A DNA stretch of 64,000 bases. Source: Prorocentrum cordatum (lineage: Eukaryota > Sar > Dinophyceae > Prorocentrales > Prorocentraceae). The translations under genes and the position numbers were made by a program. Shown here one piece after another: positions 11,372 to 33,010 of the stretch. The DNA lies in contig CAUYUJ010003559.1 of the NCBI GenBank assembly GCA_963575745.1, positions 5,001 to 69,000 of the forward strand, read 5' to 3'. The notes beneath the pieces are model-generated. The model was not told where the DNA came from. It did not search any database and was given only the letters and a program-made list of their open reading frames with translations. Numbering within the stretch: position 1 is the first letter of the stretch; each line of letters begins with the position of its first letter.

Positions 11372-11417
<46 letters not shown>

Positions 11418-11440: not shown

Positions 11441-11715
11441 TCGTCCCACCCGCAACCCGCCCCGCGACCCACCCGCGACCCATCCCGCGACCTACCCGCG
11501 ACCACCCACCCGCCCCGCGCCCCGCGACCCACCCGCGACCCACCCCGCGACCCACCCGCGACCCACCCGCGACCCACCCGCGACCCACCCCGCGACCCAC
11601 CCCGCGACCCACCCGCGACCCGCCCGCGGCCCACCCCGCGACCCACCCGCGACCCACCCGCGACCCACCCGCGACCCACGACCACCCCGCGACCCACCCG
11701 CGACCCACCTTCGAC
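11441..11715. repeat. GCGACCCACC minisatellite
   Basis: Irregular 10-11-bp units GCGACCCACCC and GCGACCCACCCC. All six frames are open by composition. Confidence 0.9.
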
Positions 11716-12075: not shown

Positions 12076-12079
12076 CTTT

Positions 12080-12455
12080 TGCAGGAGGACGAGGAGGAGA
12101 AGGAGGATGAGGATGAGAGGATGAGGGATGAGGATGAGGAGGAGGAGGAGGAGGAGGAGGACGAGGAAGGGGACGACGACGACGTCGACGACGACGACGA
12201 CGAAAAGGAGGAGGGGGGAGGATCGGGAGGGGGGGAAGAGGAGGAGGACGACGAGGAGGAACATGACGACAATGGGAGGACGATGATGGAAGGACGAGGG
12301 GGGCAGAGGGAGGACGAGGAAGAAGCGGAGGAGGAGGAGGAGGACGAGGTGGAGGAGGAGGACGACGATGACGATGAGGACGAGGACGAGGACGAGGAAG
12401 AGGAGGAGGAGGAGGCGGAGGAGGAGGAGGAGGAGGAGGAGGAGGAGAGCGCCAT
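12080..12455. repeat. Purine-only (GAGGA)n tract
   Basis: Almost pure purine on the + strand, translating as Glu/Asp runs or, in reverse, as Ser runs. Compositional, not a credible gene. Confidence 0.85.
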
Positions 12456-15130: not shown

Positions 15131-15476
15131 CCCGCCCCTCGACGCACGGGCGCCTCAAAACATCGGCCGCCCCTGCTGAAATTGCTTTCTGGTGGTCTTT
15201 TCGACCTCCAGACGGTCTGGAAGTTTGAAGGGGGCTGGAAAGCCCAGCCAACAGCTTCGCCTCAGGCGAAGCCAAGCTCCCACTCTGTTGTACCGAAGTA
15301 ACGATAGTCCCAGTATGAGAGGAGATGCCATCTCAAGCAATAGGGACATCCTTTGAGTCTCGATAGCGATAGTGTGCCTCGCGGTGGGGCGCAGTCAAAT
15401 CTGGGCGGCCGGCCGCTTGAGCTAGCGCGGCCGCGGGCGCGCGCTCGTTTCCACCCCTCGCGCCCCTCAGCTCGCT
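15131..15476. other. No gene recognised
   Basis: GC-rich sequence between the satellite element and the end of the retroelement. I looked for an LTR and could not identify one. Confidence 0.35.
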
Positions 15477-16290
15477 TTAGAGTCGGGGGGGGGGGGGGGG
15501 GGGGGCGAGCGAGCCCGTCGCCCCTGTGTAGCAGGCGCAGCAGCTAACCTGCGCAAGGGCAGGAATGGAAATGGGCCAAAGAAAGGTGGGCCCGCCAGCA
15601 AGTTGCCTCGCATATGTATGACATACTTGTCGGGCGGCGTCAGAACTTGATGTCTGGCCGGCTCGATATGGAGTATGTCTCTTCAGGCCATGTTTGAAGG
15701 TCTGTATGCCTCGCATGACTTGTAGGGGCATTTCTCTGTCGATGCTCCCCTTGGTGTGGCCATCCGCAGTCATATCGCGGGTATCGCACCACTGAATACT
15801 CTGCGCGATTCCACGCTCCATCATCTGTCGTATCCAACTGATGTGTCCTGAAAGGGTGCACTCAGTCGGCTTTTTCAAATCTGCGCCTGACAAGAACTTT
15901 AAAACAGACTCAGCATCGATGGTCAAACTCAGTGCTCAGGCCACCCAACTCAAGTATATTCTTCAACTGAGTGTGTGTGTGTGTGTGAGCGGCCACGCGT
16001 GGAGCTCGTGCAGAGTCAATCGTGGGATAACAGTCCTCCAATTTATGGGCTGCTGCTAGTGTCTCTGCTGAATAGCTCGAGCGGGCCTGCAGGCGGTGAG
16101 ACTTGCAGCGCGCATCAATCAAGTGAACGACAGGCTTACCGAATAACGTGTTTCACGTCGTAGCAAGGTTGCCCCGCGAATACGATCGCCTTCGACGTCG
16201 TCGTCGGCGTCTCCTCTCAAGCGTCGAAATCCTGAGTCGCTATGTATGTCGACCTCGCCCGTGGGGTTCATCGCCTGGTAGACGATTTTC
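15477..16290 (-). pseudogene. Ty1/copia RNase H domain, broken
   Basis: C-terminal RNase H part of the copia-type polyprotein, which would cut the RNA strand of the RNA/DNA hybrid during reverse transcription. In sense order: a first acidic motif HSDSGFR (Asp at 16236-16238), a SYSAET motif (usual RSxxSAE region), and WCDTRDMTADGHTKG near the end. The last motif is typical of the copia RNase H tail that carries the final acidic residues. The motifs lie in different frames separated by frameshifts and a CA-type microsatellite, so no intact product is possible. The end near 15486 is a long poly-G run. Confidence 0.75.
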
Positions 16291-16304
16291 TTCGGGCAGG
16301 CCTG

Positions 16305-18035
16305 TCATTTTCTGGTGATAGCGTTCAGTCGTCGCACTTGAGTGTTGGTCGGTTCTTGGACGTGCTGTTGAGATACAACATACACCATTAACCACGCCTG
16401 GGTGATCAGTGTGTATGCCAGCGCACCCCTGAGACTGACGAACATGTCTGCCACCACCTTGGTTGCTTGCGCGTCAGCGTCAGCGCCGGTTACTTCGGAA
16501 TGTTGTATAGGAGAAAGCTGTTTAATATATTCATCTTGATCCAAGGTAACATTACCGTCCTCGTCCTTAGTGTATCTGAGAGCACAATTAGTATGTGTGT
16601 GCTTGTTGAGTTTACACTTGCCGAAATTCTCTTCAAGGCATTTGACAGATTTGTCAATGGTGTCCTCAGTACCGGCCATATTAATGCAATCAACATGCTT
16701 GGCCGTGGGCAAGTCATTGCTCGTCTCGAACTCCTCGTCGTAAGACGCGGGTCGGAGGCCAAATCCTCTGGTGGTTCTTCTGAGCTTAAATGAGAGAGCC
16801 CGCGGAGCGTCCAAAGTGCCTATGCCCGGTTTCAAGCGCTGTAGACAGTGCTTTAACTCCTCGTAGTTCTCGAATCCTGGAAGAGTACGGAGCGCAGTGG
16901 CCGATCCAGGCAGCAAAGTAAAGCACGCCACGCGTCCCCTTGCACCAGTAGCCCCGGCAACTTCCTGATAGGTCAATCCCTTCAGGAAGGCCATGTTGAC
17001 GTCGAGGGGAGCAAGGATCCAATGCTTCTTGCACGCTGCCGTGCTAGCGAGTAACCTCTGTATTGGCCTTCATGCTTCCCGAAGATGTTTCTACGTCAAA
17101 AACTTCAAGGTCCATGAAGCCTCGGAGTACCAAGCGTAGTCGGATGGCACGTTCCATTGCGCCCTTTTCGTTCTTCACGAATTTCCAATTGTACATGCAT
17201 CTCGACATCGTGATGTTCGACGCTTTAGCTATCTCCTGCATCTCAAAGCATTTGTTGTCGAACCAAGTCTTGAGCTCGGTGAAGAGGGCCTTCGATACTT
17301 TATCGGGATTTGCCTGAGTGTCAGCTTTAGTGAGGAAGTCGTCTTCCTTGACGACCACGGCTCGCTTTGCAGCGGCGGTAACGCATACTCGCATATTGGT
17401 CACCCGGTCGGCATCTAATATCACGTGTTGCTGCTCGGACATGACTACCTTCGACATTTCTGTCGTAAAGCATAATTCAACGCATCGACCGTTTTCGTCT
17501 GAGTCGAGTCCGTAGCTGTCGTCTTCGACCGTGGTGCAAAAGGGGCCGTAGTACGTCTCCTCGATATCGGAGTCGTGAGTGCGTCCCCACTTCGGCAGGT
17601 GTCCCCGCTGTTCATTAGCTACAGTGATCAGCGCGCTCTGATCTGGAACCATCTGTGTGGATATGGTCAAGAGGTCTTCTGGTGGATCTACCTCCAACAA
17701 TTCCCTCTCCTCTTGCAATTCTGCGCGACACACCTCCATAACATGCGACTCGAGATCAACTTCTGATTCCTCGTAAATCGTAGAGAACCGTCCGTCATCA
17801 TATGCTGGTTCGGCTTCCGAAGCCTATCTTGCGGTTCCTTCCGGTGTCGGCGCATCTGCCAAGTCCTCAAATTCTGATATGTCCTGATCGAAACCTGCTT
17901 GAGGTTTAGTGGACATAAGGCATTTGATGATTCGTGAATGTGCTGATCCAGTAATATCATGTATACATTCAGAGCAGTACCTTCTGCTTCGTAATAATGG
18001 AATCCTGGAATCACGTCGTTGTCGTAATGAACCAA
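16305..18035 (-). pseudogene. Ty1/copia reverse transcriptase, broken
   Basis: Reverse transcriptase region (RVT_2 type). In sense order: a linker rich in acidic residues; TWFDNKCFEMQEI; MYNWKFVKNEKG; RLRLVLRGFMDLE (usual KARLVxRGF motif); VETSSGS; APLDVNMAFLKG (usual DVKTAFLxG, the first catalytic Asp region); APRALSFKLRRTTRGFGLRP; and a C-terminal MVYVVSQQHV motif. Frameshifts separate the blocks near 17040 and 16990, and one premature TAG sits at the first. The usual Y/H-x-DD catalytic pair is not visible where expected, where the frame reads INMAGTEDTID, so activity is unlikely even apart from the frameshifts. About 18036-18318 holds no clear domain. Confidence 0.85.
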
Positions 18036-18318
18036 TGTGAAGCTGTCGGCTTAAGTAACCGGAGGTAGCTCATGGATACTCTTGGCTAATCTGGCCGAAA
18101 CTACATTCTCAATACGAAAGAAGATTATGATAAGACATTGTAGGGCCAAATGTACCTTAGGGGATAGACGACTTGCAGTCTTCATCTGAAGCGTACCTTT
18201 CTTAGTCGGCAGATAGCCAAATGTCAAAGCAGGTCTCCCCGCTGATAGGCTGGCTACGAATGTCAACACTGTGCGTCGTGCAGTGTTGTCGGAGCCATTC
18301 TCTCGGGCTATGAGTGCT

Positions 18319-19460
18319 TCAATGTATAATGAATGTATTGCATCGCCGTACAGTACTTGAACATCTCGATTGCCTACTCGGACGATGACCTGACCCCTTT
18401 AAGGGATCATTCCTTACGACTGGGAACGGGCCGTTCCAGCCTCCCCAGTCATCCTTCGTGGTCGTAGGGCGATGGTAGTCGACCAAGTCTCCTTCGTCAT
18501 AATAGTGCTGACCGGTAATTGTCGTCTTAGTGCGTAATGCACGATTGGTCTTAGCTACTGCCGTGGCCTGTGTGATAGCTTCCATGCATGCCCTGCGCAT
18601 CCTCCGTCCACGAGAACGATATGATGTTTCCGTCGGCTGCTCGTGGTCCAGAACAGGGAGGTCAGGGAGCATTGCTGGTTGCCGTCCGAATCGAGCGTTG
18701 TATGGAGACACTGCGTTATAGAAGGCGAATGCGTGGGCGGCGAACAAGGCTTCGTGCAGTAGTCTGGTGAACGCAAGAAGTATCTCTAACCTATTGAGTT
18801 CAGCCTCCATGGCGTGAAGTAAATGACGTAGGATGCCATTTCTGGCCTCGATCGTTGTGGCGTGCTGTCCACGCGCGCGTATTCTAAGTTCAGTGCCTTT
18901 TTGCCTTGAGGACTGCTTTCGCAGTGTCGTTGTTAAGGGCACCTTCTCCATCGGAGTAAAGTAGCTTGGCCGGTCCAAACTGCATCCAGCACTGGTGATA
19001 TGCATCCAGGATAGTGGTCGTAGTCTTGTCTGGTATTTCAGTCCCAGTAGCATATCGTATACAACGATGGATAATGTGAAATATATTGTATTCTTGCTTG
19101 TAGAACATCAAATCGCATTCCACGTCCTCATTGAATTTACCGGGTAATGCAGTAGAAGGCACACCAGTGTGTCCAGGTTTGTCCCAAGCTCTGCATTCTC
19201 GGCATGCGTCGCAGACACCCATGCTGAGGTTGAGTCTGACACTGTCCAGACCTATTTGCTTAATATGAGTCTCATCTTAGGCTCCTTCGACTGGAACCGC
19301 GTAAATGTAGCTTTCGAAACTCGCGTGTTACCACGTTGGGGTCAAAGCTTCGCAGGTTTTGTCGACTGATTTGTACATCGAACCGTGGCCAGTCTGGTAG
19401 TCGTGGTCGTGCAGCAGGGTTCCCCGCTGGTGGTGGTGGAGGTGCTTCTCCACCTTTTTG
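18319..19460 (-). pseudogene. Ty1/copia integrase (DDE), broken
   Basis: Integrase of the same element, inserting the cDNA into host DNA. Sense order: FDVQISRQNLRSFDPN, a conserved region before the integrase; a CDACRECRAW zinc-type segment; core motif VECDLMFYKQEYN (first Asp); AKLLYSDGEGAL (second Asp); TIEARNGILRHLL (catalytic Glu); then a C-terminal part with ALFAAHAFAFYNAVSPY and a basic tail. All three DDE residues are present, but the frame shifts at about 18900 and again near 19330, so it cannot be made as one protein. One hairpin motif lies at 19414-19427 and reads AGNPA in the true frame. Confidence 0.85.
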
Positions 19461-19464
19461 TCGA

Positions 19465-20378
19465 CCACGTCTGACTCTAACCTGCGGTAGTCGGAGATGG
19501 CCATCCGAACTACCAGCTCAACTGGAGGCAGGTTGCCCTGCAGCAGGCTCAGCAGCATGTCTTCCAACAGTGTCGTGGCTGCTTGCGCCCGCGGTGGGTC
19601 CAACTCTGGAGCCGGGTCTCGGTGCTCTCAGTCGCGTAAGTGATGGTGCTGCTGGCGTCTCGGGTGGTGGTGCTGCTACCTCAGCAGGATCTGGCAGTGC
19701 AGGTCTTGCTGCCGGCTCGGGAGGAACCGGCGGAATCTGTCCATGATTGTCGGGCAACTTCCAAGGCTTGGCAAATTTGCATTTGCCAGGTGTTAGTACA
19801 TGTCCAGGTTTGTTCTTCCCGTAGCTCTTCTGACGGCTCGGATACTCCCAATGGTAGTCGTCTTTTTCGAACCATCTGCACTGTCTCGGATCTCTGTCGT
19901 GAGAGGAAGAACGCACGTTAATTTTATCCGCGCAAGCAGGACAGCCAAGCCCTCCCGACGGTGGTCTCGTAATCGGGCCATCCGGTTGTCGGGGAAGACT
20001 CGGGTAGTCCAAATTGCATCCCCTTGCGTTGGTGACCAATGCGGTGGGCGGATACGGGTAGCCATGGAAAGGGCCACGGGTTGTCTGAAAGAGATCGTGT
20101 GCGATCTGAACAGATTCGACAAAGAGCGACTGCATCTTTAATGTATATTGCGCAGCCGTGGACAATTCCTTATTGCATACCAGCGCGTGTTGACGATGGT
20201 CACTGCGTCGTTTCCGTTCAAAAGGGGTGAGTAATAGACGATGGTTGGCCATGATCTCGGTCGGTTTTCGCATCGGTACCCCGTGGGGATCACGTGCGCC
20301 AGTAGTGCATTGACCCATGTTCACCTTGCAAGTGCCCTTGCTTTTGACCAACGTAGTCCATGGTGGTATCTGACCCAC
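19465..20378 (-). pseudogene. Copia-type Cys-rich / Pro-rich region before integrase
   Basis: One open stretch of 286 codons (19518-20378). It contains Cys pairs (LGCPACAD, RQCRWFEKDD, GKCKFAKPWKLPD) that suggest a zinc-binding module, followed by a Pro/Ala-rich tail ending AAGQPASS. I associate this layout (Cys-rich block, HVLTPGKC-type motif, Pro-rich spacer, then integrase) with dinoflagellate copia polyproteins. Specific function unknown. It carries hairpin motif 19528-19541. It is intact by itself but out of frame with its neighbours. Confidence 0.6.
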
Positions 20379-20401
20379 CCAAGTCCCAACTGGTTTTTCT
20401 C

Positions 20402-21031
20402 TTAGATAAAACCGTCGTACATTATTTTGACGTACAGCTTGATGTGTGGTAGGTCTTGTTGATGTTGTTCATGCCAGGTGTCGTAGTTAACCTTTGCATT
20501 GAAATTGGAAGGTAAGCCGATTCTTCTGCAATTGGGCTGGCGCATGACAACCTTGACGAAACAAACGTCTAAATCGTGCATCGCTGCATATTGGACCTCC
20601 CGGTTGCCAAGATCAACAAAATACGTTTGTCGAGGTTTCCCCCTGAAGACAGACCTCGGCTGAATGCTAGTTGGGAGATGCCTCCAATTCTTCCACATGG
20701 CTCTAACACATCTACCTTAGTGTACCGTCGCACAGGGTGGGGATTATGTAGAATACATCTGCGTAAGATTCAGCAGGTTGCCCCGCGGGTAGGTGACGAA
20801 GGTCTCCTCTCCATCGTCGCTATCCGCGTCAGAGTCCAGAGGTGCGTCGGCGTAGTACGTGCTACACCCGAGTCCTCTCAGGTCGTCTCCACAGTCGTCG
20901 TTGCCTTCTTCGACTATTTTGGGTATCTTGCGTGGTTTGACGCCACATTCTGCGTCTGCTTTCATGTTTCCCCACATTCTAAGTGGGGTTCTGATTTTCT
21001 CTACACCCGCGTCGCACCCGCGTTCACTCAC
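20402..21031 (-). pseudogene. Copia polyprotein fragment, unknown domain
   Basis: Coding remnants in two frames. The downstream piece contains KVNYDTWHEQHQQDLPHIKL and ends in a stop at 20402. Upstream, the frame after a hairpin motif (20773-20786, AGQPA) continues as ESYADVFY. These match the style of the rest of the polyprotein, but no enzyme is recognised. The coding piece is interrupted by stops and abuts the 90-bp satellite array at 21170. Confidence 0.5.
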
Positions 21032-21169
21032 CTCCCCTTCTCTACACCCGCGTCACACCTGCGTTCCCACCTCACCTCCTCCTTCTCGCTCGTGCACACA
21101 CGCACCACGCCACACCGCGCCACATCGCGCCACACCACACCACGCCACACCACACACCACCACACCACA

Positions 21170-21870
21170 GAGAGTGCGCAGAGGGTGGTCCCTCAGCGCA
21201 GCCTCTATCCGTGACGCGCTCGCAGATCGTGGTAGGAACGGCACTTTCTCGACACCAGAGGGGGTGCGCAGAGGGTGGTCCCTCAGCGGGGCCTCTATCC
21301 GTGACACGCTCGCAGGGCGTGGCAGGCGCGGCACTTTCTCGACATGACATGGGGGTGCGCAGAGAGTGGTCCCTCACCGCAGCCTCTATCCGCGACGCGC
21401 TCGCAGATCGTGGTAGGAGCGGCACTTTCTCGACACCACAGGGGGTGCGCAGAGGGTGGTCCCTCAGCGGGGCCTCTATCCGTGGCACGCTCGCAGGGCG
21501 TGGCAGGCGAGGCACTTTCTCGACACCGCTGGGGGGGCGCAAAGGGTGGTCCCTCAGCGGGGCCTCTATCCGTGACACGCTCGCAGGGCGTGGCAGGCGC
21601 GGCACATTCTCGACATCACATGGGGGTGCGCAGAGGGTGGTCCCTCAGTGTGGCCTCTATCCGTGACACGCTCGCAGAGCGTGGCAGGCGCGGCACTTTC
21701 TCGACGCCGCTGGGGGGGCGCAGAGGGTGGTCCCTCAGCGGGGCCTCTATCCGTGACACGCTCGCAGGGCGTGGCAGGCGCGGCACATTCTCGACATCGC
21801 ATGGGGGTGCGCAGAGGGTGGTCCCTCAGTGCGGCCTCTATCCGTGATGCGCTCGCAGGGGTGTGGCAGG
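21170..21870. repeat. 90-91-bp satellite array, eight units
   Basis: The motif GTGGTCCCTCA recurs near 21185, 21275, 21366, 21456, 21546, 21637, 21727 and 21818. The unit holds GCCTCTATCCGTGACACGCT, then CGCAGGGCGTGGCAGGCGCG or CGCAGATCGTGGTAGGAGCG, then CACTTTCTCGACA. It lies inside the retroelement region. Confidence 0.95.
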
Positions 21871-22328
21871 ACTTGGGGGCGCTCTCTCTTTCAGGCTTCC
21901 AGGGCGCGTCAGGCGTAACAGTTCCTCGACGCCAGAGGGCGGCGCATGGGGTGGGGAGCTCCACATATCGACATATGGGACACATGTCTGTGACCCTCGA
22001 GCATCCTGATATGTAACGCATTGGCTCAAGCCGGCTCAGCGCGCATAGTTTTCCACTCAGACGCGCCCTGCTTCCGTATCTTAAAGCAGCAAGCGATCCC
22101 TTGCGGTGTGCGGCACTCATGCCGCCGAAAATTGCCATCGCCGCCCTGCCACCACCTTGTTTGGCGCTGAAGGAGGCAATGAGTGGGATGGGCCTTGAGG
22201 TCAATCTGGCAGGCTTGCGCGGCTACAAGGATGCGCAAGGAGACCTTCGGGATCGAAACGCATTTAATGCTTATCATCGACAACTCGCCAACTGGTGGCC
22301 TCATACTCTTCTCATCAGGTACAACGAG
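21871..22328. other. Unassigned sequence inside the retroelement region
   Basis: Between two satellite arrays. The minus strand has a protein-like stretch (TPQGIACCFKIRKQGASEWK) that could be more retroelement polyprotein, but I cannot assign a domain. Confidence 0.3.
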
Positions 22329-22450
22329 GTGTGTGTGTGTGTGTGTGTGCGTGTGTGTGTGTGTGTGTGTGTGCGAGTCTCCATCTCCCTCTCTCTTTCT
22401 CATTATTTCTCTCTCTCTCTCTCTCTCCCTGTCGCCCTCTCTCTCTATGG
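22329..22450. repeat. (GT)n and (CT)n microsatellites
   Basis: A GTGTGT tract followed by a CTCTCT tract. Confidence 0.95.
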
Positions 22451-22940
22451 GTGAGAGGGGCCGCAAGGCTCCCGCAGTGCTTTCACTCGCAGAAGCAAGC
22501 CTCGCATGACCACGCTGGTGCACTTGTCATCACGCGAATTTTCGCTGACGTTTCTTTCTTGTCATGTAGCTCTGGTAGATGCTCTGCTGCTGTGTCTAGC
22601 ATTCGGTTCTGCAGTGGTCATTCAGTTCGGGCCGAGGCCAAACGAGCTGGAGGGTAGGGAAGCAGCTAACAACAAAACGATATCCCGGGAGACTTTTCGT
22701 CAAAGGGAAGCGCCGTGCCATAGACAATTCCGCCCACTGGGTCTTCGAAAAAGGAAGGGCGGAGGAGGGCGAGAAGGATAAAGGGGAACGCAGGACTGTG
22801 CATAGATGATAATGACACGCGGAAGCACCAGCCCCCCCATGACCGTGCCCAGCAAGGCGCCCACATGATAATGACAAGCAAACACATAATATTATATATC
22901 AGTATGTGGGGTTCCTCGGTAGCGTAATTGTTTTTTCCCC

Positions 22941-25066
22941 AACCATCCTGTGGTGTTGGGTCCTCGTTTTGAAGGGACGTCGCCCCGCGTTCCTCCTTCC
23001 TGCTCCTTCCTCCTCCTCCCCTTCCTCCCCCCTCCTCCCCCTCCCACACCCATTCTGGCACGCCCCTCGCGCGTTTCGTGGCCCCATAGGGAGCTCCACC
23101 GAAGGCGCCAGTGGCTGCGCCCGCATGCGGTTCCACCCCCCATTCTGGCACACCCCTCACACGCTTCGTGGCCCCATAGAAAGCCCCACCGAAGGCCCCA
23201 GTGGTTGCGCCCGCATGCGGTTCCACCTTCTCATTCTGGCACACCGCTCACACGTTTCGTGACCCCATAGGGAGCTCCACCGAAGGCCTCAGTGGCTGCG
23301 CCCGCATGCGGTTCCACCCCCCATTCTGGCACACCCCTCGCAGGTTTCGTGGCCCCATAGGGGGGGAGCTCAACCGAAGGCCCCAGTGGCTGCGCCCGCA
23401 TGCGGTTCCACCCCCCATTCTGGCACACCCCTCCACGTTTCGTGGCCCCATAGGGAGCTCCACCGAAGGCCCCAGTGGCTGCGCCCGCATGCGTTCCCCC
23501 CATTCTGGCACACCCCTCGCGTTTCGTGGCCCCATAGGGAGCTCCACCGAAGGCCCCAGTGGCTGCGCCCGCATGCGGTTCCACCCCCCATTCTGGCACA
23601 CCCCTCACACGTTTCGTGGCCCCATAGGGAGCTCCACCGAAGGCCCCAGTGGCTGCGCCCGCATGCGGTTCCACCCCCCATTCTGGCACACCCCTCATGG
23701 CCCCATAGGGGGGTCCACCGAAGGCCCCAGTGGCTGCGCCCGCATGCGGTTCCCTCCCTTTTCGGCACGCCCTTCGCGCGTCTCGTGGCCCCATAGGGAG
23801 CTCCACCGAACGCCGCAGTGGCTGCGCTCGCATGCGGTTCCAGCCCCTATTTCGGCACACCCCTCACACGTTTCGTGGCCCCATAGGGAGCTCCACCGAA
23901 GGCCCCAGTGGCTGCGCCCGCATGCGGTTCCACCCCCCATTCTGGCACACCCCTCACACGCTTCGTGGCCCCATAGGGAGCTCCACCGAAGGCCCCAGTG
24001 GCTGCGCCCGCATGCGGTTCCACCCCCCATTCTGGCACACCCCTCACACGTTTCGTGGCCCCATAGGGAGCTCCACCGAAGGCCCCAGTGGCTGCGCCCG
24101 CATGCGGTTCCACCCCCCATTCTGGCACACCCCTCACACGTTTCGTGGCCCCATGGGGAGCTCCACCGAACGCTCCAGTGGCTGCGCTCGCTCCGGTTCC
24201 ACCTCCCATTTCGGCACAACCCTCACGCGCTTCGTGGGTGGCTCCACGGGGAGCTCCATCGAACGCCCCAGTGGCTGCGCTCGCATGTGGTTCTCCCACC
24301 CCCCATTTCGGCACACCCCTCACGCGGTTCGTGGCCCCATAGGGAGCTCCACCGAAGGCCCCAGTGGCTGCGCCCGCATGCGGTTCCACCCCCTTTTCGG
24401 CACGCCTTTCACACGTCTCGTGGCCCCATAGGGAGCTCCACCGAACGCCGCAGTGGCTGCGCTCGCATGCGGTTCCAGCCCCCATTTCGGCACACCCCTC
24501 ACACGTTTCGTGACCCCATAGGGAGCTCCACCGAAGGCCCCAGGTGGCTGCGCTGGCATGCGGTTCCACACCCCATTCTGGCACACCCCTCCCACGAATC
24601 GTGGCCCCATAGGGGGCTCCACCAAAGGCCCCAGTGGCACTGCCCGCTTGCGTCCGCCACCACCCAGCACAGCCCTTGTTCCCTGCGCTTCACCCACCCA
24701 GAACAGCGCTTCGTAGCCCTATAGGGAGCTCCACCAAAGGTCCCAGCGGCACCGCCCGCATGCGTCCGCCACCACCCTGCGCAGCCCTTGCTCCCTGCCT
24801 GCGTTTCACCCACCCAGTACAGCGTTTCGTGGCCCCATAGGGAGCTCCACCGAAGGTCCCAGTGGCACCGCTCGCATGCGTCCGCCACCACGCAGCACAG
24901 CCCTTGCTGACCGCGTCTCACCCACCCAGTACAGCGCTTCGTGGCCCCATAGGGAGCTCCACCGAAGGTCCCAGTGGCACCGCCCGCATGCGTCCGCCAC
25001 CACCCAGCACAATTGCGGCATTCACAACTGCATATGGTTGGGTCCTTCGCCAGGCTAATTTTTTTG
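22941..25066. mobile_element. Satellite-bearing repeat element, copy 2 (nested)
   Basis: The left end CAACCATCCTGTGGTGTTGG continuing GTCCTCGTTTTGAA and the right end CACAACTGCATATGGTTGGG continuing TCCTTCGCC match copy 1 at 13666-15130. The interior is an array of ~92-bp units (TTTCGTGGCCCCATAGGG, AGCTCCACCGAAGGCCCCAG, GGCTGCGCCCGCATGCG). Near the right end the units change to a ~115-bp type with CACCCACCCAGTACAGCG, like copy 1. It lies between two parts of the copia-type coding region. Confidence 0.65.
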
Positions 25067-26004
25067 TTTAATTCTGGCATCTGTTGGTCGCGCTGTTTGT
25101 TGCTCTGTCTCAGGTGAGCTAAGTGTCGGAAATTCAGGAACAGAGGGTACCGCGCTGCCGCGCTCAATCGAAGGGGGAGGGAGACGATCGTCATCGATGA
25201 TCGCTACTCGTCTTGAGCGTGGTCGTGAACTGCCATCTCCCAAGAGAGCCGGTTCCGGCTGCTCCCAGTACAGTCGAGTACGGATGTTGGTAACACCATT
25301 GGGTAATGGTGCGTTGTAGTTGTGCCCAGTCGGCTGGTCCTGGATCTTGATGTCCTGGATGATGGCGTTGTCGTCCAGGTTCATCGTCACCCGTCTCACA
25401 ACATGGTCCCACTCGGGGCCATTCTTGGGAGACTGAACGTAAGTTCGAGCTCCTTTTATCAACGCGAGTATGGATACTCAGATGTACAGCGCTTGTGTGA
25501 TTTCTTTGCGTTTTATGTAAATCCATTTGATAAATCAACCTTGCGGTCATGATCGCTACGTGTCTTGTTCCGCCATTCGGCCTTCTGAACACCTTGTCCC
25601 TACCAGTCTAAAATATGCTCAGTCGGTTCTGCAGGCTCCCCTGCTATATTGCATGCGCATCGCCATAGATTAGTGGGGATGCGCGCGCACGTAGTCGCCA
25701 CTTGCAGATATGATCCGCTGGGCAACGTGTTAGCGCGGTCGTTCTTGAAGCCGAAGTGGCAAAAACGCATGCGCATGACTTGAACATCAATATCTTCAAT
25801 CACATCTCGTATGGGACCTGGTTTCCAGAAATATCCTGGTGGCCCCACAAGAACAATGGTCATGCGTAGAGCCCGAGCATTGGACATCATATTTTGGATG
25901 CGCTGGTAGTGCGGCCCTGCCCTATTGCCAGGCAGCCTCACATACCAGTCAGCAGGTGTTGCTACCCACAACAGTAGGTAATCACCCGAGAGCAACGCAT
26001 CCAA
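25067..26004 (-). pseudogene. Copia polyprotein domain of unknown function
   Basis: The upstream part (25600-26004) is a 134-codon open stretch with IVLVGPPGYFWKPG, MRMRFCHFGFKND, LPSGSYLQVATTC, LWRCACN and PTEHILDWYG. I associate this set with the region after the protease in dinoflagellate copia-like proteins; its function is unknown. It holds a hairpin motif (25631-25644, AGEPA) placed between CACNI and EPTEH, as though inserted. Downstream pieces (WRNKT, IMTARLIYQMD, then PEWDHVVRRVTMNLDDN) are in other frames, so this part too is broken. The last readable piece ends next to the right end of the satellite element. Confidence 0.6.
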
Positions 26005-26346
26005 ATACTATGTACCAGTGGAGGTCATTACCTCGGCATGTGTAGTACGATCGCACATGTATCCACGGGCTCGGAGTTCAGCGCAAGCTGTCCGTATATC
26101 CTCAATGACAAGTGCACGAGAGTGATAATGATGCGACAGTCCTTCTCTTTCTGCAGCGGCCACACAGCCGGGTCCGCTGCTGTTCGCGGCAGCCGCGCAG
26201 CCGGGCTTGCCGCGGTCCCTGGCACGCAGCGCCGGTGCCTGGGCGGCGCCTGGGAAGAGAATGCAGGTTTCCCCGCGTTTGCTGACAGCGCCTGAATGTT
26301 CGGCCTGTCTGAGCAAGCGCGAGTGGCCGTGGCGCACCTGCCCCCG

Positions 26347-26850
26347 TCACTCGTTTGGCGACGGGGGCGTCCAAAGACCAGTGCCGTGCTGCGCTGCAGA
26401 GGCGCTGCCCGAAGTAAAAATATCAAACTTCTCAGCGGCATCATCCACTTCCGCAGGTGCCCCTGCCTGTGCATCGGGAGGCGTCCACTTCGTATCCTCC
26501 TCGTAGATGGCCTGATATATCTTCGCCTGCAAATTGCGGAGGGCGAAGTCCTCGTCGGCCGAGGTAGGGGTAGTCCCACAGGACGTATCTCTACGATGAC
26601 ATGTCTTCTAAATATGATTCACCAAAGTCTGGATCGTGAAAGCGAACGCCTCGTCATTAATAAAGAAACTGATGCCCTTCGTATCCTGACATCATGTGTG
26701 CGTGGGCATCAATCATGCACAGCAGGTGCCCCTGCGATCTGCTGTGGAACGGGCACATCCTTGACGAGTAATGAAGTTTCTTCGCGCTGAGGGTTGGCCG
26801 TGTTAATAAACGACATCGGCCCTTGATCCTCAGTAGCCATCTCGTACTCG
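26347..26850 (-). pseudogene. Linker coding remnants
   Basis: Short protein-like pieces with hairpin motifs at 26453-26466 (QAGAPAEVDD) and 26722-26735 (QIAGAPAVHD, followed by a TGA). IYQAIYEEDTKWTPPD lies just upstream of the first. No domain recognised. Confidence 0.4.
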
Positions 26851-27511
26851 TCAGCCTTGTGCCAGATGCCCGGAGGGCGTCTTCATCAGGTCGAGTACCC
26901 AGGCACCTTTTCCGAGTAGAACCTCGTGCATCTCCGCGCCAGGGATGATCGTCTTCTCGCGCCCCTGCTCAAGGATCAGGATGGCCCTCATGTTGGACAT
27001 GCTCCTCAGACCCAAGATGGCAGGGAGGTTCTCCCCAGAGCCCTCAGCCACATTTGCTGAGTACGTATCAAGTATCGTAGCAGCAGGTTGCCCCGCGGGA
27101 TCCCCCCTTTCCTTTGTCGCAAATCGCGGCGCCATGTCCCGCCCCTGACACGTCAAGCCTCTTCGTGAGGTTCAGCCTTTTAATAGCGTGTCCGTGGGGA
27201 CGTGATACCTGCTCAAAGGTCTGTGCTGTCTTCAATCAAATAATATTGATATTACTGCCAATCTCCAAAAGAATAGTAAACATACCATTGAACATACTTC
27301 CACTGTTAGCTGCCAAGGCTAGCTCATCGCGTTCACCAAATATTCCAGGAACTTCATATACTGTCGTACCATGCAAGCCTTTACGGCGCCTCTGCTCCAA
27401 CACCCAATCATTTCTTGACAAAGATGTGAAATCATTCGTATACCCACGAGCCTCTTCTTCTGCAATGGGATTCTTTGCAAAGATCCAGGGTGTAGGATAT
27501 TCGCCATACAT
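26851..27511 (-). pseudogene. Retropepsin-like protease region, altered
   Basis: Aspartic-protease-like region of the retroelement, which would mature the polyprotein. In sense order: FTILLEIGSNINII at the position of the catalytic D-[ST]-G motif; then an in-frame TGA (27236); KTAQTFEQVSRPHGH; LTKRLDVSGAGHGAAICDKG; a hairpin motif (27083-27096, AGQPA); SGENLPAILGLRSM; IIPG; and a closing PSGHL motif. Expected catalytic Asp-Thr/Ser-Gly reads Glu-Ile-Gly here, so the enzyme would be inactive. The TGA appears to replace a glycine codon. Confidence in the assignment rests on the order and the LPAILG and PSGHL motifs. Confidence 0.6.
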
Positions 27512-28718
27512 ATGGTTGTGATGTGGAGGTAATGGGTAATATCAGAAACGTGTCCTCATCCGCGCGCGTGCTCATCTGACCGTCAGTATCTATCATAAGT
27601 ACCGTGCGCAACATGTCGCGTTCGGATATCCCACTATTGCCACTGCGCATGCTTGCAGGGCTCTCCGCCCTGCGCTGACTGCGTGGACGGAGATCTCGCC
27701 CATATGGCAAATATGAATGCGAAGACTGAAGCCATTGAGCGCTCCGGTCGGTAGCCCATTCCATGCGCCTCAACCACGTATCGTTCACTGGTGCCGGAGG
27801 TGGGGCCGATCTAGCAGGTGCCCCTGCGTTGTTGTCGGTCTCTGCCACCAATGGCATAGGCGCGTCTATAGACAGTGCCCCTGCGAGTGTGGTTGTCTCC
27901 GTTACTAGCCCCGCGTTGGCTGGCGACGCAGGTGGCCCCGCTGGTGTCGCCATCGAGACGGCCGCGGTGCCCGTCATCATGGCCGTAACGCGGTTGAGCT
28001 CTTCACGGAGACCCCTGAGCTCGTTCGCCCCTCGGAGTGCGTCTTCATGACGATTGAGTGGCTCTTGATCTCCAGCAAAGGCGTTGTGGAACTCGGCAGT
28101 AATGAGGCCAACGCCCCTGCATATAGCACAGGGGGCCTCACTTGCGGAACCCTCCATGTTCCCAGCCAGCTGTCTATCCACGTGGGCGTGTACCACTCGA
28201 TCCCAGCATTGTGCGTGGAATATGTGGCCGCACTGGAGGCGCCAGACCTTGTCGTGATTCATGAACAAGTCCAGGCATATGGCACACTTACTGAAGTCAC
28301 CGCCGCTGATGATGGGCGGTGTTGCCGATGGCCTGATACGCGTCTGACGCTCCAGGGTGGATTCACCAGCCTCGAACCGAATCGGTGATACCGTCGGTAG
28401 CTGCGTTGATGCAACCATGGCTGAACTGCTCGCAGGTGTCCCTGCTATATTGCGATTAGCAGGTTGCCCCGCGCGGCTTAGCATTCTGTTGGCCTGGCGA
28501 TCTTGATTTCGGCGCTGGCGTGAAGCCTGCAGAGCCAAATTGGCGTGCTGCGCCTCGTGCGTGGCTAGGATCTCAGTGCGCAGATCTCCCATGGTCGGCG
28601 GCAGCACTCGGCCTGGAGCCTGTTGCTGTGCACCTTGATCCATGGAGGAAGCCAAATAAAAGTGAGGCATCTGTCCTGGCACGCCTGATGCATGCCCTGA
28701 GCCACGTGTCAACTGCGA
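27432..28718 (-). CDS. RING-H2 finger protein region of the retroelement
   Basis: An intact stretch of about 430 codons. A Gln/Ala-rich N-terminus holds two hairpin motifs (28459-28472 AGQPA, 28432-28445 AGTPA). Then comes a RING-H2 finger: CAICL, a 13-residue spacer, CGHIFHAQC, then CAIC, i.e. C-x2-C, C-x-H-x2-H-x2-C, C-x2-C. The C-terminal half is Ala/Pro-rich with AGPPA and AGAPA motifs, then DTDGQMSTRADEDTF before the frame shifts into the protease region. RING-H2 fingers usually recruit E2 enzymes for ubiquitin transfer; whether that applies here is inference. It lies directly upstream of the protease and is probably part of the same polyprotein or gag-like protein. Confidence 0.7.
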   Translation of the reverse strand, partial: SQLTRGSGHASGVPGQMPHFYLASSMDQGAQQQAPGRVLPPTMGDLRTEILATHEAQHANLALQASRQRRNQDRQANRMLSRAGQPANRNIAGTPASSSAMVASTQLPTVSPIRFEAGESTLERQTRIRPSATPPIISGGDFSKCAICLDLFMNHDKVWRLQCGHIFHAQCWDRVVHAHVDRQLAGNMEGSASEAPCAICRGVGLITAEFHNAFAGDQEPLNRHEDALRGANELRGLREELNRVTAMMTGTAAVSMATPAGPPASPANAGLVTETTTLAGALSIDAPMPLVAETDNNAGAPARSAPPPAPVNDTWLRRMEWATDRSAQWLQSSHSYLPYGRDLRPRSQRRAESPASMRSGNSGISERDMLRTVLMIDTDGQMSTRADEDTFLILPITSTSQPYVWRISYTLDLCKESHCRRRGSWVYE

Positions 28719-28791
28719 CTGGTAGAAGTCGCCGGCCGTCGCCCGAACATGGATTTTCGGGCTGTGTTCCCACCCGAGGAATACCACTCAC
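28719..28791 (-). other. Candidate 73-nt GT-AG intron
   Basis: On the minus strand the coding text ends CCCAG, then GTGAGTGG (donor at 28791-28790), and 73 nt later comes CTACCAG (acceptor end 28719). Removing it joins the upstream frame (YLDYHAQ) to the RING frame (SQLTRGSG) in phase. A plain frameshift would explain the frame change equally well. Confidence 0.4.
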
Positions 28792-29448
28792 CTGGGCATG
28801 ATAGTCAAGATAGAATGGATGATCCATTGGCGCTGCTGTAAAACGATTATCATACGTTGGGTCGTAAGTCGGATGACTGAAGAATGCTGGCACGTAGCCG
28901 AACATATTGGGATTGTCAGATGAAGGATTTGGATCCGGAAAATACTCCCACGGCGGCGTCCAGTTGGCATTAGGGAGGTCAATACCAGCCCTCCGCATGC
29001 TCTGAGCAGCCTCATGCATCTGCCGATGCGTCCACTCTTGCTGACCAACTCAACTTCTCTGTATGGCGCATTGGTCAGGAATAGCAGGTTGCCCCGCATG
29101 TGGACGTGGCGATGCGAATGGCGATGTCGCCTGTAGAGCCTGGTAGATCTGCGGATCCATCCCCATGCTTTGGAGCCTCGCCTGCAGGCGGATGTTGCTC
29201 CCAGCGCTCTGTGGAGTGCCAAATGGTGTAGTAGCTCTGCTCATAGGAGCAAATGAGGCAGGTTGCCCTGAAGGTGGTGGCAGCTGTTGTACATGAGCAC
29301 GCCACGGATCGTTGACGTACAAGGTTTCGGAAGGCGTAATGCCACTTGGTGTAATGCCTGTCACATCGGCGCTTTGAGCCTGTATCCATGATCCATCAGA
29401 TCCCCCCTTCAGGTGCCCCCGCGTGATACGCGTCCACCATGAGCACAC
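28792..29448 (-). pseudogene. Pro-rich linker with in-frame TGA
   Basis: A single frame interrupted once by TGA (29050-29052). It contains Pro/Thr/Ser-rich text, ITPSGITPSETLYVNDPW, SGQPASFAP (imperfect hairpin 29258-29271), PHAGQPA (29084-29097), then WTPPWEYFPDPNPSS and PMDHPFYLDYHAQ. No domain recognised; gag-like by position. A run of six C near 29402-29407 marks a frame change at its upstream end. Confidence 0.5.
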
Positions 29449-29508
29449 GTGAGAACACGACCTCCTGGACCGGAGGCGGATCGGGGCACTTCAGGTTGTA
29501 AGGGGTAT

Positions 29509-29616
29509 CTGGAAAAAACAAAAAAAACAATCAAGGATGATGCACCATTGCGGATCTCGTACATTTAACACTCGGGAGCGGCTGATTGTCGCCCCGCAGA
29601 TGAAAAGGATCCATAC
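29509..29616 (-). other. Candidate 108-nt GT-AG intron
   Basis: Minus strand: donor GGACAG/GTATGG (29616), acceptor after a strong pyrimidine run TTTTTTTTGTTTTTTCCAG (29509). Coding-like text lies on both sides (CQYNRVGQ upstream, YNLKCPDPPPVQEVVF downstream), but the phases do not join perfectly, so an extra indel is needed. Confidence 0.4.
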
Positions 29617-31137
29617 CTGTCCCACGCGATTATACTGACAAGTATGGCTGGGCAGGATCCCGATCAATTGGGCGATGTCGCAGGAGGAATCCTTCCATTC
29701 CGGCCCGCTATCATGGCGATGTCATTAGCTGGGCGCCAGATCGGAATGTTGTCCCGAACCAGGTTCTTCATGCTGAACCTTGATCAGGACCTCCGAATCG
29801 ACGCGTAGGCCCGACTGAATCCGGTTGTCACCAGGAAGGTAGGGGCAACCATGTGCAAACTGTCTGCCCCTTTTCTTGGTGGTGTCGTCGGCGCGGCATG
29901 ATAATCCAATGTTAAGAATACTCGGCATATTCTCCCATTGAGTTCCATGAATGAAATAACAGGGCGCCCCAGGAGCGGACAGGTCCGTAATTCCCACATA
30001 TATATAATAATAACTCAGGGCACTTAATACCAGGGCTGCTGTGTCCGTTAACTGGCCGGATGAAGTATGTGTCGTAATTCATGTCGGAATGCTTCATCTT
30101 CTTGATCTGCAGCCTATTCTCTTTCATTCCAGACTCATCTATCATACCGATACGTTCCAAGAAAGCATGCGCCTGGTACGCCCAGTGCTGGTCCTTGAGC
30201 ATGTGGCGTACCGTGTCCAAGTGCAGGGGGGGTGTCTCCCGTATCCTTCTGCAGGCCATGTGTTGAGTTACTGTGATAGTTCTGCCCACCCGTCGTACTC
30301 ACCATACGTCGTCACTTCACGAATGAATCTGTCCGACAAATTGCCATTATGAAGCGGCTTGTGACGGGCAGTTGTCAACCACTCAGAAACCTGACGTTGA
30401 TCGTCGTTCTTGAACTTCGGCCTGCGAACATTCTCTGACCTGAGGATGTTATCCAAATTGTCCTTTTCAGAGTCAAACGTGAGTGCTGGGCGTTTCCGCA
30501 GGATGTTGCGCACTGTTCGGCGCGTGTGTGCACCTTGATCAGCAAGGACAGCAGTGTCCAGGACGTTGTACTGCACCACCATGTATCGTTCAGATCCATC
30601 GTCAATCCGCGGATGATACGCTGGATTGATCTTCGTGCGGTTGGAAGTGCGCATCCTATCCCAGAACTCTTTGCATTCCGGTGGTACCTCCAGCGCAGGG
30701 GCAGGTTGCCCCGCTGAACTTTGACCCGGTTGCCCCGCAAAACTCTGAGCAGGTTGCCCCGCAGAACGTGGGGCAGCCTTTGGCGCGGCAGGCGCTGCTG
30801 CGCTCGCTGCCGGCGCGGTAGCGCCAACAGATCCTCTGGGCGTCCTTGGAGTTCCTTGCGGGGTACTGATATCGAAGTCCTGGTGCTTCTCCTCCTTTGT
30901 GTTGTAGGACTCGGCAGCCTTATCCCTGGGCGCTGCTCCTGGCACCTTTGGTGTGGTAACAGGGAGCTTCCCAGCACGTTGCGTGGGGGAAGCATCCCTT
31001 GCGCTGTTGCACACGCGCGGTGGCGGGGTTTGCCGCAAGCAACTGGATATAAGGCCCCTTCCTAGCCACACCCGCTTGCACGCGTCGCTAACCATTCCAA
31101 TCGTGATGCCTCTGCGACCACAACAACCACTGAGCAA
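29617..31137 (-). pseudogene. Tpt1/KptA-like RNA 2'-phosphotransferase, frameshifted
   Basis: Family role: Tpt1/KptA removes the 2'-phosphate left at RNA ligation junctions (e.g. spliced tRNA), transferring it to NAD+. Visible motifs in order: an Ala/Pro-rich N-terminus with three AGQP repeats (30701-30762); SEWLTTARHKPL (Arg-His motif); GWAELSQ; LERIGMIDESGMKENRLQI; YFIRPVNGHSS (the IRAxQGHS motif with its Arg); CYFIHGTQWENMPSILNIGL (HGT...W..IL..GL motif); and IQSGLRVDSEVLIKV (C-terminal Arg motif). The Arg-His-Arg-Arg set expected of the family is therefore present. Two frame changes, near 30270-30290 and 29910-30000, break it into three frames. It lies immediately upstream of the gag-like and RING parts on the same strand. 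Whether it is part of the retroelement or a neighbour gene is inference. Confidence 0.75.
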
Positions 31138-32110
31138 CTGTCACCGTCTTCGCTGCTGCCGCGGAAGGTACCACCTTATCCCCAGGAGAGCCCAGACTCG
31201 ACTCGACAAGTCGAATCGGCGATCGAAACCAATCGGATCGACGGAAATCCGCAGCCGCCGAGTCGGGAGAAGTCGAATCGGCAGAAATCGGCAGGCTAGT
31301 GGGCCTCCTTGGAGAAATCGGATCCCACATCGTAATCCGATGTCGAATCGAATCGACATCAAAATCCATCGAAATCGAATCGAATCGAACTGGAGGAATC
31401 GAAACGAGTCCTGCATCCCTGACGTTTCCCTGGCGTGGTAAGCGCGTTGCCAGAACTGGGCATCGCCTGTGCGCAATCCCGCAATGCGACAGTCTTGGTT
31501 CTCGGCCGTCGGGCGGACGGCTAGCTGTACCACCAGTGGGTGCAGGATGACTGTGCAGCAAAGCCCGCTTCCCGAGTGCGCGTAGCAAAGGCGAAATATG
31601 TTTGTTCAAGTGTCTGTATTGGTGTGCATGTATGTAGCGATGCCTATGCAGATGTACATTGTATACGCGCGTCTACACATGTAGATGCTTAACTGCTATA
31701 TATATATATATATATATGGTCTGGGAGCATGGCCTGAGCCGATGGGAGAGGACCACTCTGAGCTGGAGATCTGGCTGGAGCGAAGGCGAACATGCAATTC
31801 CGAAGGTTGTAAGATGATTCGATCAAGAACCCCAATCATTACGAGGGCACACCCTGTTTTAGCACAACGCCCAAGAAAACCAATACCGCTGGTGACAAAC
31901 CTGAGGCGGCTGGGGCGGCAACACAATGCTGAGCCGAGAGCGTGGCCAGAGCTAACGCGAGAGAGCAATGTGAAGGCTGAGACGACCTCGATGGTAAAAG
32001 ATGTGTAATACTACGGGTATACGGTATGGGTTTCTGACCATGGGTAGTGGGAAAGAGAGGGAGAGAGAGAGAGAGAGAAATAGAGGGAGAGAGAGAGAGA
32101 GGGAGAGAAA

Positions 32111-32185
<75 letters not shown>

Positions 32186-32354
32186 GATAGATCCGCCAGC
32201 ACCCTTGCGGGGCCACAAGTCTGCGAGGGTGAGGATTGCAGCTCCCTGTTCCAAATGTAGTTTCCAGGTTCCACCGTTACAGTCATGCTTTCTGCTTCCT
32301 TACTGTTAATTGTTGCTGGACGCGCGAGGGGGGGGGGGGCGCAGAAAAACGTCC
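31138..32354. other. No gene; simple-sequence patches
   Basis: Contains a TCGAATCG-rich patch (about 31195-31400), a (TA)n run (about 31698-31718), and a GA-rich then (GACA)n block (about 32055-32190). No credible gene. Confidence 0.6.
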
Positions 32355-33010
32355 TGGCTAGCGTCCCCGAATCGCGTTGTCTGAATTCCCAGGGGGTCGT
32401 GGGATACGAACATTTACATTCGCGTCCCCGAGGCCATCAACCATTGACAATTACTAAATATTCGCGTCCACGAGGCCACACACCATAGTAAACTACACAA
32501 GATTCGCGATCCCAACGCCGCACTCCTCTGTAAATTAAACAACATGTCCGCGTCCCCGAAGCCACAATCCCTCGTACAATATACGATTCTCGCGCTCCCG
32601 AAGCCATACACCCTCGTAAATTTTGCCATATTCGCGCCCCCGAAGCTAACTTCCTGGTAACTTATGCAGTATTCGCGTCCCCGAAGCCATAAACCGTTTA
32701 CATGACTCAATATTCGCGCCCCCGGAGCCATACACCGTTTTAAATTACTGCGTATTCGCGACCCCGAAACCACAACCCAAAGAAACTCATGTAATATTCG
32801 TGTCCCCAAGGCCACACACCGGTGTAAATTAAACAATACTCGCGTCCCCGAAACCATAAAACCTGATAAAGTATGCAAGAGTTGCGTCCCCGAGGCCATG
32901 CATCTTCCTAAATTGCGCAACAGCCGAAGCCACAATCCTTAGTAAATGACTCCATTTTCGCGTCCCCAAGGCCATAAACTCTGGTATATTACACAATTCT
33001 TGCGTCCCCG
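32355..33010. repeat. ~42-bp minisatellite, about 16 units
   Basis: Units carry TTCGCGTCCCCGAAGCCAT, then ACACCNTNGTAAATTA and a CAATA-like end. CGTCCCCGA-like cores lie near 32361, 32422, 32464, 32507, 32552, 32591, 32632, 32675, 32713, 32757, 32799, 32841, 32883, 32926, 32959 and 33001. Diverged, so old. Confidence 0.85.

Follow-up and report, generated by a model that had tools for sequence, protein, structure and literature searches.

Why should one short hairpin recur through nearly the whole length of a mobile element? The question arises in a stretch of 64,000 nucleotides (nt) from the dinoflagellate Prorocentrum cordatum (contig C3559:5001-69000, here called the window; the genome comprises 4.128 Gb in 21,875 contigs), where a retroelement on the minus strand carries many copies of a 14-nt motif, GCRGGGNNNCCTGC. 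A first-pass annotation had proposed either a tiny mobile element or a structural or packaging hairpin of the retroelement RNA. We found the motif to be one form of a wider hairpin class whose carriers, judged by their domains and ends, are a superfamily of large Copia-like long terminal repeat (LTR) retrotransposons in P. cordatum that encode Tpt1, RING, and Gag. To judge from the changes in its stem, the RNA hairpin structure is very likely real; its packaging role remains a proposal.

A strand-specific hairpin class

The first-pass annotation had listed 14 perfect sense-strand copies within positions 19414 to 30762. The strand was right and the count too low: GCRGGGNNNCCTGC matches perfectly at 18 places in the window, without exception on the minus strand (0.27 ± 0.53, largest 2, in 100 dinucleotide shuffles of the window), with 17 of them within 17595 to 30762 and 15 of these within 19414 to 30762. 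The matches at 17595 and 18229 extend the earlier set, and the eighteenth, at 62242, is not in the element and could have arisen by chance. The stem described as fixed also proved too narrow: a single element of a related family uses ten stems that obey the same code, of which it is one. The earlier pattern is a subset of the wider class GCNNG-GNNA-CNNGC, outside which the motifs at 19414 (loop GAAC) and 25631 (loop GGAG) fall. The general hairpin is 5′-GC NN G-GNNA-C N′N′ GC-3′: the outer, second, and closing pairs and the G..A of the loop are kept, and the inner pairs and the middle of the loop are variable.

We compared three families: F1, the family of the window element, with relatives at several genomic places; F2 (L038/L039, L046-L048, L049-L051, and the diverged members L052 and L053), with the copies C20766, C2, and C14429; and F3 (L010/L011, with the relatives L054/L055). 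A scan for any stem of 5 bp with a GNNA loop found 51 hairpins on the sense strand of an F2 copy, 11 on the antisense strand, and 6.9 in block shuffles; the corresponding numbers were 149, 50, and 35.7 for F1 and 20, 6, and 1.9 for F3. Sense-strand hairpins with other loops were nearer to the shuffles (121 vs 104 in F2, 529 vs 484 in F1, and 64 vs 38.5 in F3). GC..G stems made up 37 of the 51 sense GNNA hairpins in F2, 81 of 149 in F1, and 13 of 20 in F3, and the ten F2 5′ arms, each with its complement, were GCRGG, GCTCG, GCGAG, GCCTG, GCTGG, GCCAG, GCACG, GCGCG, and GCGTG.

When only GCNNGGNNACNNGC was fixed and the inner Ns were then checked for pairing, both inner positions paired in 37 of 40 sense frames in C20766, 37 of 39 in C2, and 37 of 37 in C14429, three close relatives whose counts are not independent; in 20 of 22 and 19 of 22 in the diverged L052 and L053; in 74 of 82 in F1, where GG/CT and AG/CT stems dominate; and in 13 of 13 in F3. 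The antisense strand had no such frame in the F2 pieces; F1 had 3 and F3 had 1, and in not one of these did both inner positions pair. All 17 sense matches to the frame GCNNG-GNNA-CNNGC in the window element were paired, with 0 antisense; the frame also matches at 3 places in the window outside the element, where one match is unpaired and the other two, which are identical, lie opposite a duplicated open reading frame (ORF).

G-U was accepted in the frame scan, in keeping with the earlier suggestion that the sense RNA pairs by A-U or G-U. The loop is often GNRA-like, as had been described, with a preference for GCAA in F1 and GAAA in F2; F3 prefers GNCA (11 of 13). Its final A is present at 64 of 79 (F1), 70 of 72 (F2), and 13 of 13 (F3) strict-motif sites. 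A DNA-level palindrome was rejected on three grounds: the GNNA loop is asymmetric, the F2 pieces have no antisense frames, and the stem tolerates G-U pairs. No match at gathering score to any of 4227 Rfam models was found in L046, L047, L010, L011, or window positions 15000-32300.

Covariation and constraint in the stem

The covariation set comprised 56 frame matches without gaps, 40 from C20766 (including 3 unpaired), 10 of the 17 from the window, and 6 of the 13 from F3, and statistics were computed on 37 distinct rows against 500 shuffles. Because the frame itself dictates pairs 1-14, 2-13, and 5-10, they carry no information in this test. Pairing held in 97.8% of pair cells (80.1% in shuffles) and covariation was 0.465 (0.101 in shuffles), values that 0 of 500 shuffles reached; double-change cells numbered 31 against 7.6. 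Pairs 3-12 and 4-11 occurred as six and five standard pair types, respectively, and slid structures were 26 to 51% paired.

Changes at homologous sites were counted in directed pairwise comparisons, which are not independent events. Among 46 changed inner-pair comparisons in F2 were 23 compensated doubles, 8 wobbles, 15 single breaks, and 0 double breaks; the 102 in F1 comprised 70 wobbles, 10 compensated doubles, 20 single breaks, and 2 double breaks. Compensatory examples at unshifted sites are GCTCG/CGAGC to GCTGG/CCAGC, GCGAG/CTCGC to GCGGG/CCCGC, and GCAGG/CCTGC to GCGGG/CCCGC.

Stem columns changed far less than the flanks, and loop columns changed like the flanks. At strict-motif sites the flanks differed by 27.9% (F1) and 14.0% (F2), stem columns 1, 2, 4, 5, 10, 11, 13, and 14 by 0-8% and 0-2%, and columns 3 and 12, where pairing was mostly kept, by 20/20% and 2/9%. 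Loop column 6 differed by 7% and 0%, and loop columns 7-9 by 38/31/22% and 21/16/7%. Two F3 copies (94.8% and 92.5% identical in two compared pieces) showed one difference over 13 motifs, and it was in the loop.

Selection on the RNA rather than on a peptide

A selected pentapeptide repeat (AGxPA or xGNxP) might leave the DNA pattern as a by-product, and 9 of the 11 homology-placed window sites do read AGxPA-like, while 25 of the 35 in-frame F2 sites share phase 2. However, all three phases occur. The 37 paired hairpins of C20766 fall in codon phase 2 (25), 0 (6), and 1 (4), with 2 beyond ORF2; in the window, homology gave a placement for 11 of the 19 sites examined, nine of them in phase 0, one in phase 1 (20341), and one in phase 2 (17608). 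Synonymous shuffling of the open frames (500 each) destroyed the hairpins, reducing the paired ones from 25 to 1.39 (maximum, 5) in ORF1, from 3 to 0.06 and from 7 to 0.24 in the ORF2 pieces, and from 4 to 0.02 and from 9 to 0.31 in F3. The phase-2 peptides of ORF1 are mostly xGNxP, and their residues 1 and 4 vary jointly as base pairing dictates (Q..L, R..P, L..E, P..R, R..S, L..Q). The nearly fixed stem columns and variable loop columns likewise speak against a peptide.

Since the hairpins lie in all phases and past the last ORF and are lost on synonymous shuffling, selection acts on RNA structure and not on the peptide. Phase and shuffling together demonstrate that the RNA hairpin itself is what selection keeps, which bears out the earlier view that conservation is at the nucleic-acid level. 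We regard a selected pentapeptide as already refuted by covariation and synonymous shuffling, its probability being next to nil. The Gly codon GGG stands in 104 of 112 sense-strand GCNGGNNNNCCNGC matches (window element and 10 further genomic pieces); it makes up 28% of Gly codons in all open frames of at least 150 amino acids (aa) in the same 10 pieces and the window element.

Ancestral sites and rare insertions

Within F1, 178 of 251 aligned site comparisons, directed and pairwise, keep GCRGGGNNNCCYGC in the relative at a flank divergence of 28%, and 13 further ones are gapped. On these alignments, the hairpin sites within the element family are mostly ancestral, and clean insertions of the motif are rare. 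The first-pass annotation had accepted that ancestral conserved codons at the sites would tell against its reading; ancestral they are, but conserved codons they are not, given the three phases and the loss on synonymous shuffling.

The tiny mobile element would be a copy-pasted insert of 14 to 15 nt spreading within elements. The preferred stem, loop, and phase vary from family to family, F1 and F2 differ in length by 15 nt at 25631, and adjacent F3 copies are 15 and 18 nt apart, all of which would suit such an insert. On the other hand, the whole motif was gapped in only 3 of 253 (F1) and 4 of 486 (F2) homologous comparisons, six directed F2 comparisons showed presence or absence by substitution in all but one case, and one element contains ten different stems; we therefore consider the insert very improbable. 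The copy at 25631-25644, which had looked inserted, is present without a gap in all four family relatives that align there, perfectly in 2 and with one mismatch in 2. A shorter sequence is seen only in the distant family F2 (L038), whose alignment has gaps summing to 15 nt; what looked like an insertion thus distinguishes one family from another.

The window element and its relatives

The features of the window element are as follows.

15222..15487, minus: LTR (3′ end) of the window element; 68-84% match to LTR-like ends of relatives
15598..15611, minus: hairpin GCGAG-GCAA-CTTGC, general class; frame scan
15627..17069, minus: reverse transcriptase/RNase H region, frameshifted; tblastn to F2 ORF2, 58.5% over 487 aa; RVT_2 in F2 homologue
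17595..17608, minus: hairpin GCGGG-GACA-CCTGC, codon phase 2 (QRGHLP); pattern and frame scan, homology placement
18229..18242, minus: hairpin GCGGG-GAGA-CCTGC, phase 0; site common to distant family F2 (L039)
19414..19427, minus: motif GCGGGGAACCCTGC, loop GAAC, outside GNNA class, phase 0
19528..19541, minus: hairpin GCAGG-GCAA-CCTGC, phase 0
20328..20341, minus: hairpin GCAAG-GGCA-CTTGC, codon phase 1 (KSKGTCK), missed by the first-pass pattern
20773..20786, minus: hairpin GCGGG-GCAA-CCTGC; pattern and frame scan
20973..25061, no strand: stretch absent here from four spanning relatives (L031, L035, L037, L040)
25631..25644, minus: motif GCAGGGGAGCCTGC, loop GGAG, phase 0; F2 15 nt shorter here
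26263..26276, minus: hairpin GCGGG-GAAA-CCTGC; pattern and frame scan
26453..26466, minus: hairpin GCAGG-GGCA-CCTGC; pattern and frame scan
26722..26735, minus: hairpin GCAGG-GGCA-CCTGC; pattern and frame scan
27083..27096, minus: hairpin GCGGG-GCAA-CCTGC; pattern and frame scan
27814..27827, minus: hairpin GCAGG-GGCA-CCTGC, phase 0
27928..27941, minus: hairpin GCGGG-GCCA-CCTGC, phase 0; gapped out in relative L034
28119..28289, minus: RING finger; Pfam zf-RING_2/zf-RING_11, E 6e-7/4e-7, in ORF 27432-28787 (minus)
28432..28445, minus: hairpin GCAGG-GACA-CCTGC, phase 0
28459..28472, minus: hairpin GCGGG-GCAA-CCTGC, phase 0
29084..29097, minus: hairpin GCGGG-GCAA-CCTGC, phase 0
29258..29271, minus: near copy TCAGGGCAACCTGC
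29409..29422, minus: near copy GCGGGGGCACCTGA
29682..29973, minus: Tpt1-like region; tblastn to F3 Tpt1-RING frame, 65 aa at 71% and 30 aa at 43%
30701..30714, minus: hairpin GCGGG-GCAA-CCTGC; pattern and frame scan
30749..30762, minus: hairpin GCGGG-GCAA-CCTGC; pattern and frame scan

In sense order, the window element has the Tpt1-like region (29973-29682), whose F2 and F3 homologues contain PF01885, the RING finger (~28289-28119), the reverse transcriptase/RNase H region (17069-15627), and the LTR (15487-15222). It is frameshifted and shows a single LTR only. No gag was found in the window by tblastn, and the 5′ part of the element has therefore probably been lost; an array of ~42-bp tandem repeats lies at 32404-32978, just upstream of this probable truncation. 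F1 relatives align to window positions 15222-20972 and 25062-30950 at 64-75% DNA identity (long matches), and their alignment suggests that 20973-25061 is a later insertion or array splitting the element. This stretch holds two arrays of ~90-bp tandem repeats. Two window ORFs from the reverse transcriptase side matched no Pfam family.

Long open frames survive in copies of F2. In C20766, ORF1 runs open through 2915 aa to where the examined piece ends, ORF2 has 2167 aa, and LTRs of 276 bp, 98-99% identical, are ~15.5 kb apart; C2 is flanked by direct repeats of 253 bp at 97%, and C14429 showed no direct repeats of at least 150 bp in the examined pieces. A single TGA separates ORF1 from ORF2, which share a frame (C20766; L047, minus strand), as in stop-codon readthrough. 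The F2 domains are Tpt1/KptA (PF01885, E 2e-19), RING, and RVT_2 (PF07727, E 4e-9, L039 frame), with a CCHC match (E 0.0013) slightly below the Pfam cut-off. In F3, part of Tpt1 (PF01885, E 5e-9) and RING share one open frame, and a Gag-like frame has no Pfam match. Tpt1 and RING occur in LTR retrotransposon polyproteins at L038:4504-7170, L011:1-3012, and window 29682-29973. Both an RVT_2-type reverse transcriptase and flanking LTRs (C2 and C20766 copies) mark the elements as Copia-like. Upstream of the reverse transcriptase the sequence looks integrase-like by eye, but it gave no match to a Pfam integrase model.

A reverse transcriptase query of the genome gave 10,027 first-look candidates, the best 138 of which scored 97-100% identity and were mostly stop-free; on these, F2 looks abundant and partly young. 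No relatives were confirmed among viral contigs in one scan with the F2 reverse transcriptase ORF, in which records near this genome were possibly excluded. Elsewhere in the window, two giant minus-strand ORFs (34165-46650, 4161 aa; 48340-60030, 3896 aa) have mutually repeating ORF patterns, and the first contains PIF1 helicase, ubiquitin hydrolase (UCH), and DUF6570 domains. Because of these patterns and of the domains, which were scanned in the first ORF only, the pair suggests a Helitron-like element in tandem.

Distribution along the element and across the genome

The 40 sense frames of C20766, 37 of them paired, span positions 378 to 15500, from ~217 nt past the 5′ LTR to ~110 nt short of the 3′ LTR. 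The paired hairpins have a mean spacing of 420 nt, slightly more even than random (coefficient of variation 0.71, P 0.023; the interval for random placement was ~110 nt longer than the LTR ends warrant), and the largest gap is not unusual (P 0.17).

Across the genome, GCRGGGNNNCCTGC occurs 48,502 times and the reversed pattern 23,778 times; therefore, about half of the raw matches are background. Counts at background level, which the first-pass annotation had named as grounds for giving up its reading, were not found, although the observed number is not far off. The G-C form with a GNRA loop occurs 12,621 times against 1,932 for its control, in a comparison that covers two of four stem forms (G-C and A.C).

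Candidate readers of the hairpins

A strict, strand-specific, repeated ligand whose closing pair and loop G..A are kept independently of the protein code would suit selection by a multivalent RNA-binding protein. We propose that the hairpins are dispersed assembly or packaging signals bound by Gag, a reading to which we give about an even chance. The array would provide repeated docking sites for the element's own Gag, with its arginine-rich segment (in F2 near a CCHC zinc knuckle) as the candidate hairpin reader, and many Gag molecules would assemble on the genomic RNA and select the element genome via the hairpins. Gag is the candidate because this segment, KRRWRRF[M/T][K/R]KPVR[K/R][V/A]RR, is nearly invariant in F1 (L034, L036), F2, and F3 and because the loop preference differs by family. 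Gag identity is 46% for F2 against F3, and the main F1 matches reach 42-47%.

Alternatively, the hairpins may be sites, taken up many times over by the element, for a host RNA-binding protein that helps a very long RNA to be exported, stabilised, translated, or localised. A uniform short ligand along a transcript fits any multivalent RNA-binding protein, and a preprint describes the GNRA fold as recognised by many such proteins (PMC12027372). However, the class is concentrated in the element within the window (17 paired, against 3 frame matches outside), and a family-specific loop type (GCAA, GAAA, or GNCA) would suit a reader that evolves with the element. We consider a host reader unlikely, though it is the main rival of Gag. 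The loops might also act RNA to RNA: GNRA-type loops would dock into helices or receptors and compact or dimerise the long genome with no specific protein. GAAA and GCAA loops dominate in F2 and F1, and GACG tetraloops are described as taking part in retroviral RNA dimerisation (PMC516450), but docking has no obvious need of the conserved outer and closing pairs, and the F3 loops are mostly GNCA; such action is improbable. The element-encoded Tpt1 RNA 2′-phosphotransferase, with its PF01885 domain in F2 and F3, raises the idea that the hairpins are sites of RNA processing or repair. With ~37 cuts per genome inside open frames, the message would be destroyed, which makes this decidedly improbable.

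Several observations weigh against Gag docking on a uniformly kept hairpin. Two of the five covariation measures do not exceed the shuffles: 479 of 500 shuffles have as many pairs changed on both sides, and 60 of 500 as many further pair types. Changed inner pairs broke pairing in 22 of 102 comparisons (F1) and 15 of 46 (F2), and outer pairs changed in 54 of 717 and 30 of 1443. Stems rarely extend past 5 bp in F2 (4 of 72), unlike those in F1 (18 of 79) and F3 (5 of 13). An A.C mismatch occurs at 4 of 72 strict-motif F2 sites, and the A.C-mismatched form is also raised across the genome (1,754 vs 531 in the control), which we read as decayed copies and diverged F2 members; L052 and L053 hold 4 A.C sites. 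In predicted folds of 134-nt contexts, scored by the probability of the weakest pair of the hairpin, F2 reached a mean of 0.83 (33 of 37 sites above 0.5), the window element a middling 0.53 (9 of 17), and F3 a weak 0.42 (5 of 13). The antisense strands gave 0.62 (26 of 37), 0.17 (3), and 0.22 (3), respectively, a high value for F2. The weaker folding in F1 and F3 counts against simple local folding, or against folding without bound protein. As for Gag itself, the window element is without it, CCHC was recognised only in F2 among the three families, and the arginine-rich segment may bind RNA without specificity.

If Gag is nevertheless the reader, the element genome may be a coded RNA scaffold, a broader idea that we hold at somewhat less than even probability. 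One hairpin ligand would be set in dozens of copies over a coding RNA of ~15 kb, in all phases and in three diverged families, and Gag would count, condense, and select its own RNA through it. If true, this would be an unusually strict RNA structure overlaid on a protein code. We know of no earlier dispersed assembly code in an LTR retrotransposon, and among the matches listed in a literature search, as far as titles and the starts of abstracts go and with subscription journals mostly outside its scope, nothing appeared to concern a retrotransposon with dispersed hairpins or an LTR element with Tpt1. The same ligand recurs 37 times in one genome under a strict code, the elements are abundant, and compensatory mutations have arisen in them naturally, which makes the array a ready system for testing Gag recognition in a retrotransposon. 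It also calls for caution, as peptides such as xGNxP or AGxPA that recur in a protist polyprotein can simply reflect an underlying RNA structure.

Comparison with known systems

Introns of P. cordatum are reported to be enriched in inverted repeats (PMC10666404), which dinoflagellate introner elements have in common with the hairpins. Introners, however, are introns with inverted repeats near both ends, whereas the 14-nt hairpins lie within uninterrupted open frames of 2915 and 2167 aa, and an introner element was rejected. REP and GPHE are types of mobile mini-hairpin; clean presence and absence of that kind was not borne out here (whole-motif gaps in 3/253 and 4/486 comparisons). The elements resemble Ty1/copia in their RVT_2 reverse transcriptase, LTRs, and, in F2, CCHC, but C20766 differs in its ~15.5 kb between LTRs, Tpt1 and RING, TGA-separated open frames, and hairpin array.

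Retroviral packaging hairpins, among them the GGAG hairpin SL3 of HIV-1, are a few and lie in the leader, whereas here there are dozens between the LTRs, through the ORFs. G-starting tetraloops are common to both, and the GACG tetraloops of alpha- and gammaretroviruses are described as acting in packaging (PMC516450). In phage lambda, according to a preprint, the arginine-rich N peptide reads the GNRA fold of boxB with a specific closing pair (PMC12027372). The short stem, the GNRA fold, and the important closing pair recur here, where an arginine-rich reader is a candidate only; boxB is a GNRNA pentaloop, and the present hairpin is a tetraloop in many copies.

The closest likeness in layout is to dispersed packaging signals: sense-only stem-loops share a motif along the element RNA, and their structure is under RNA-level selection. 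In its presumed working, with putative binding of Gag, the array would resemble such signals. Known dispersed packaging signals are degenerate and debated. Dispersed stem-loops with a shared coat-protein motif are described as driving the assembly of single-stranded RNA viruses, a principle proposed to be widespread in how RNA genomes assemble (PMC6281560). As described for MS2 and the pregenome of hepatitis B virus, many short stem-loops with a shared loop motif likewise lie along the genomic RNA (PMC6281560, PMC7612645). Unlike those viral signals, the array described here belongs to a retrotransposon and follows one strict code, a 5-bp stem with its outer and closing pairs kept, repeated 37 times in one genome.

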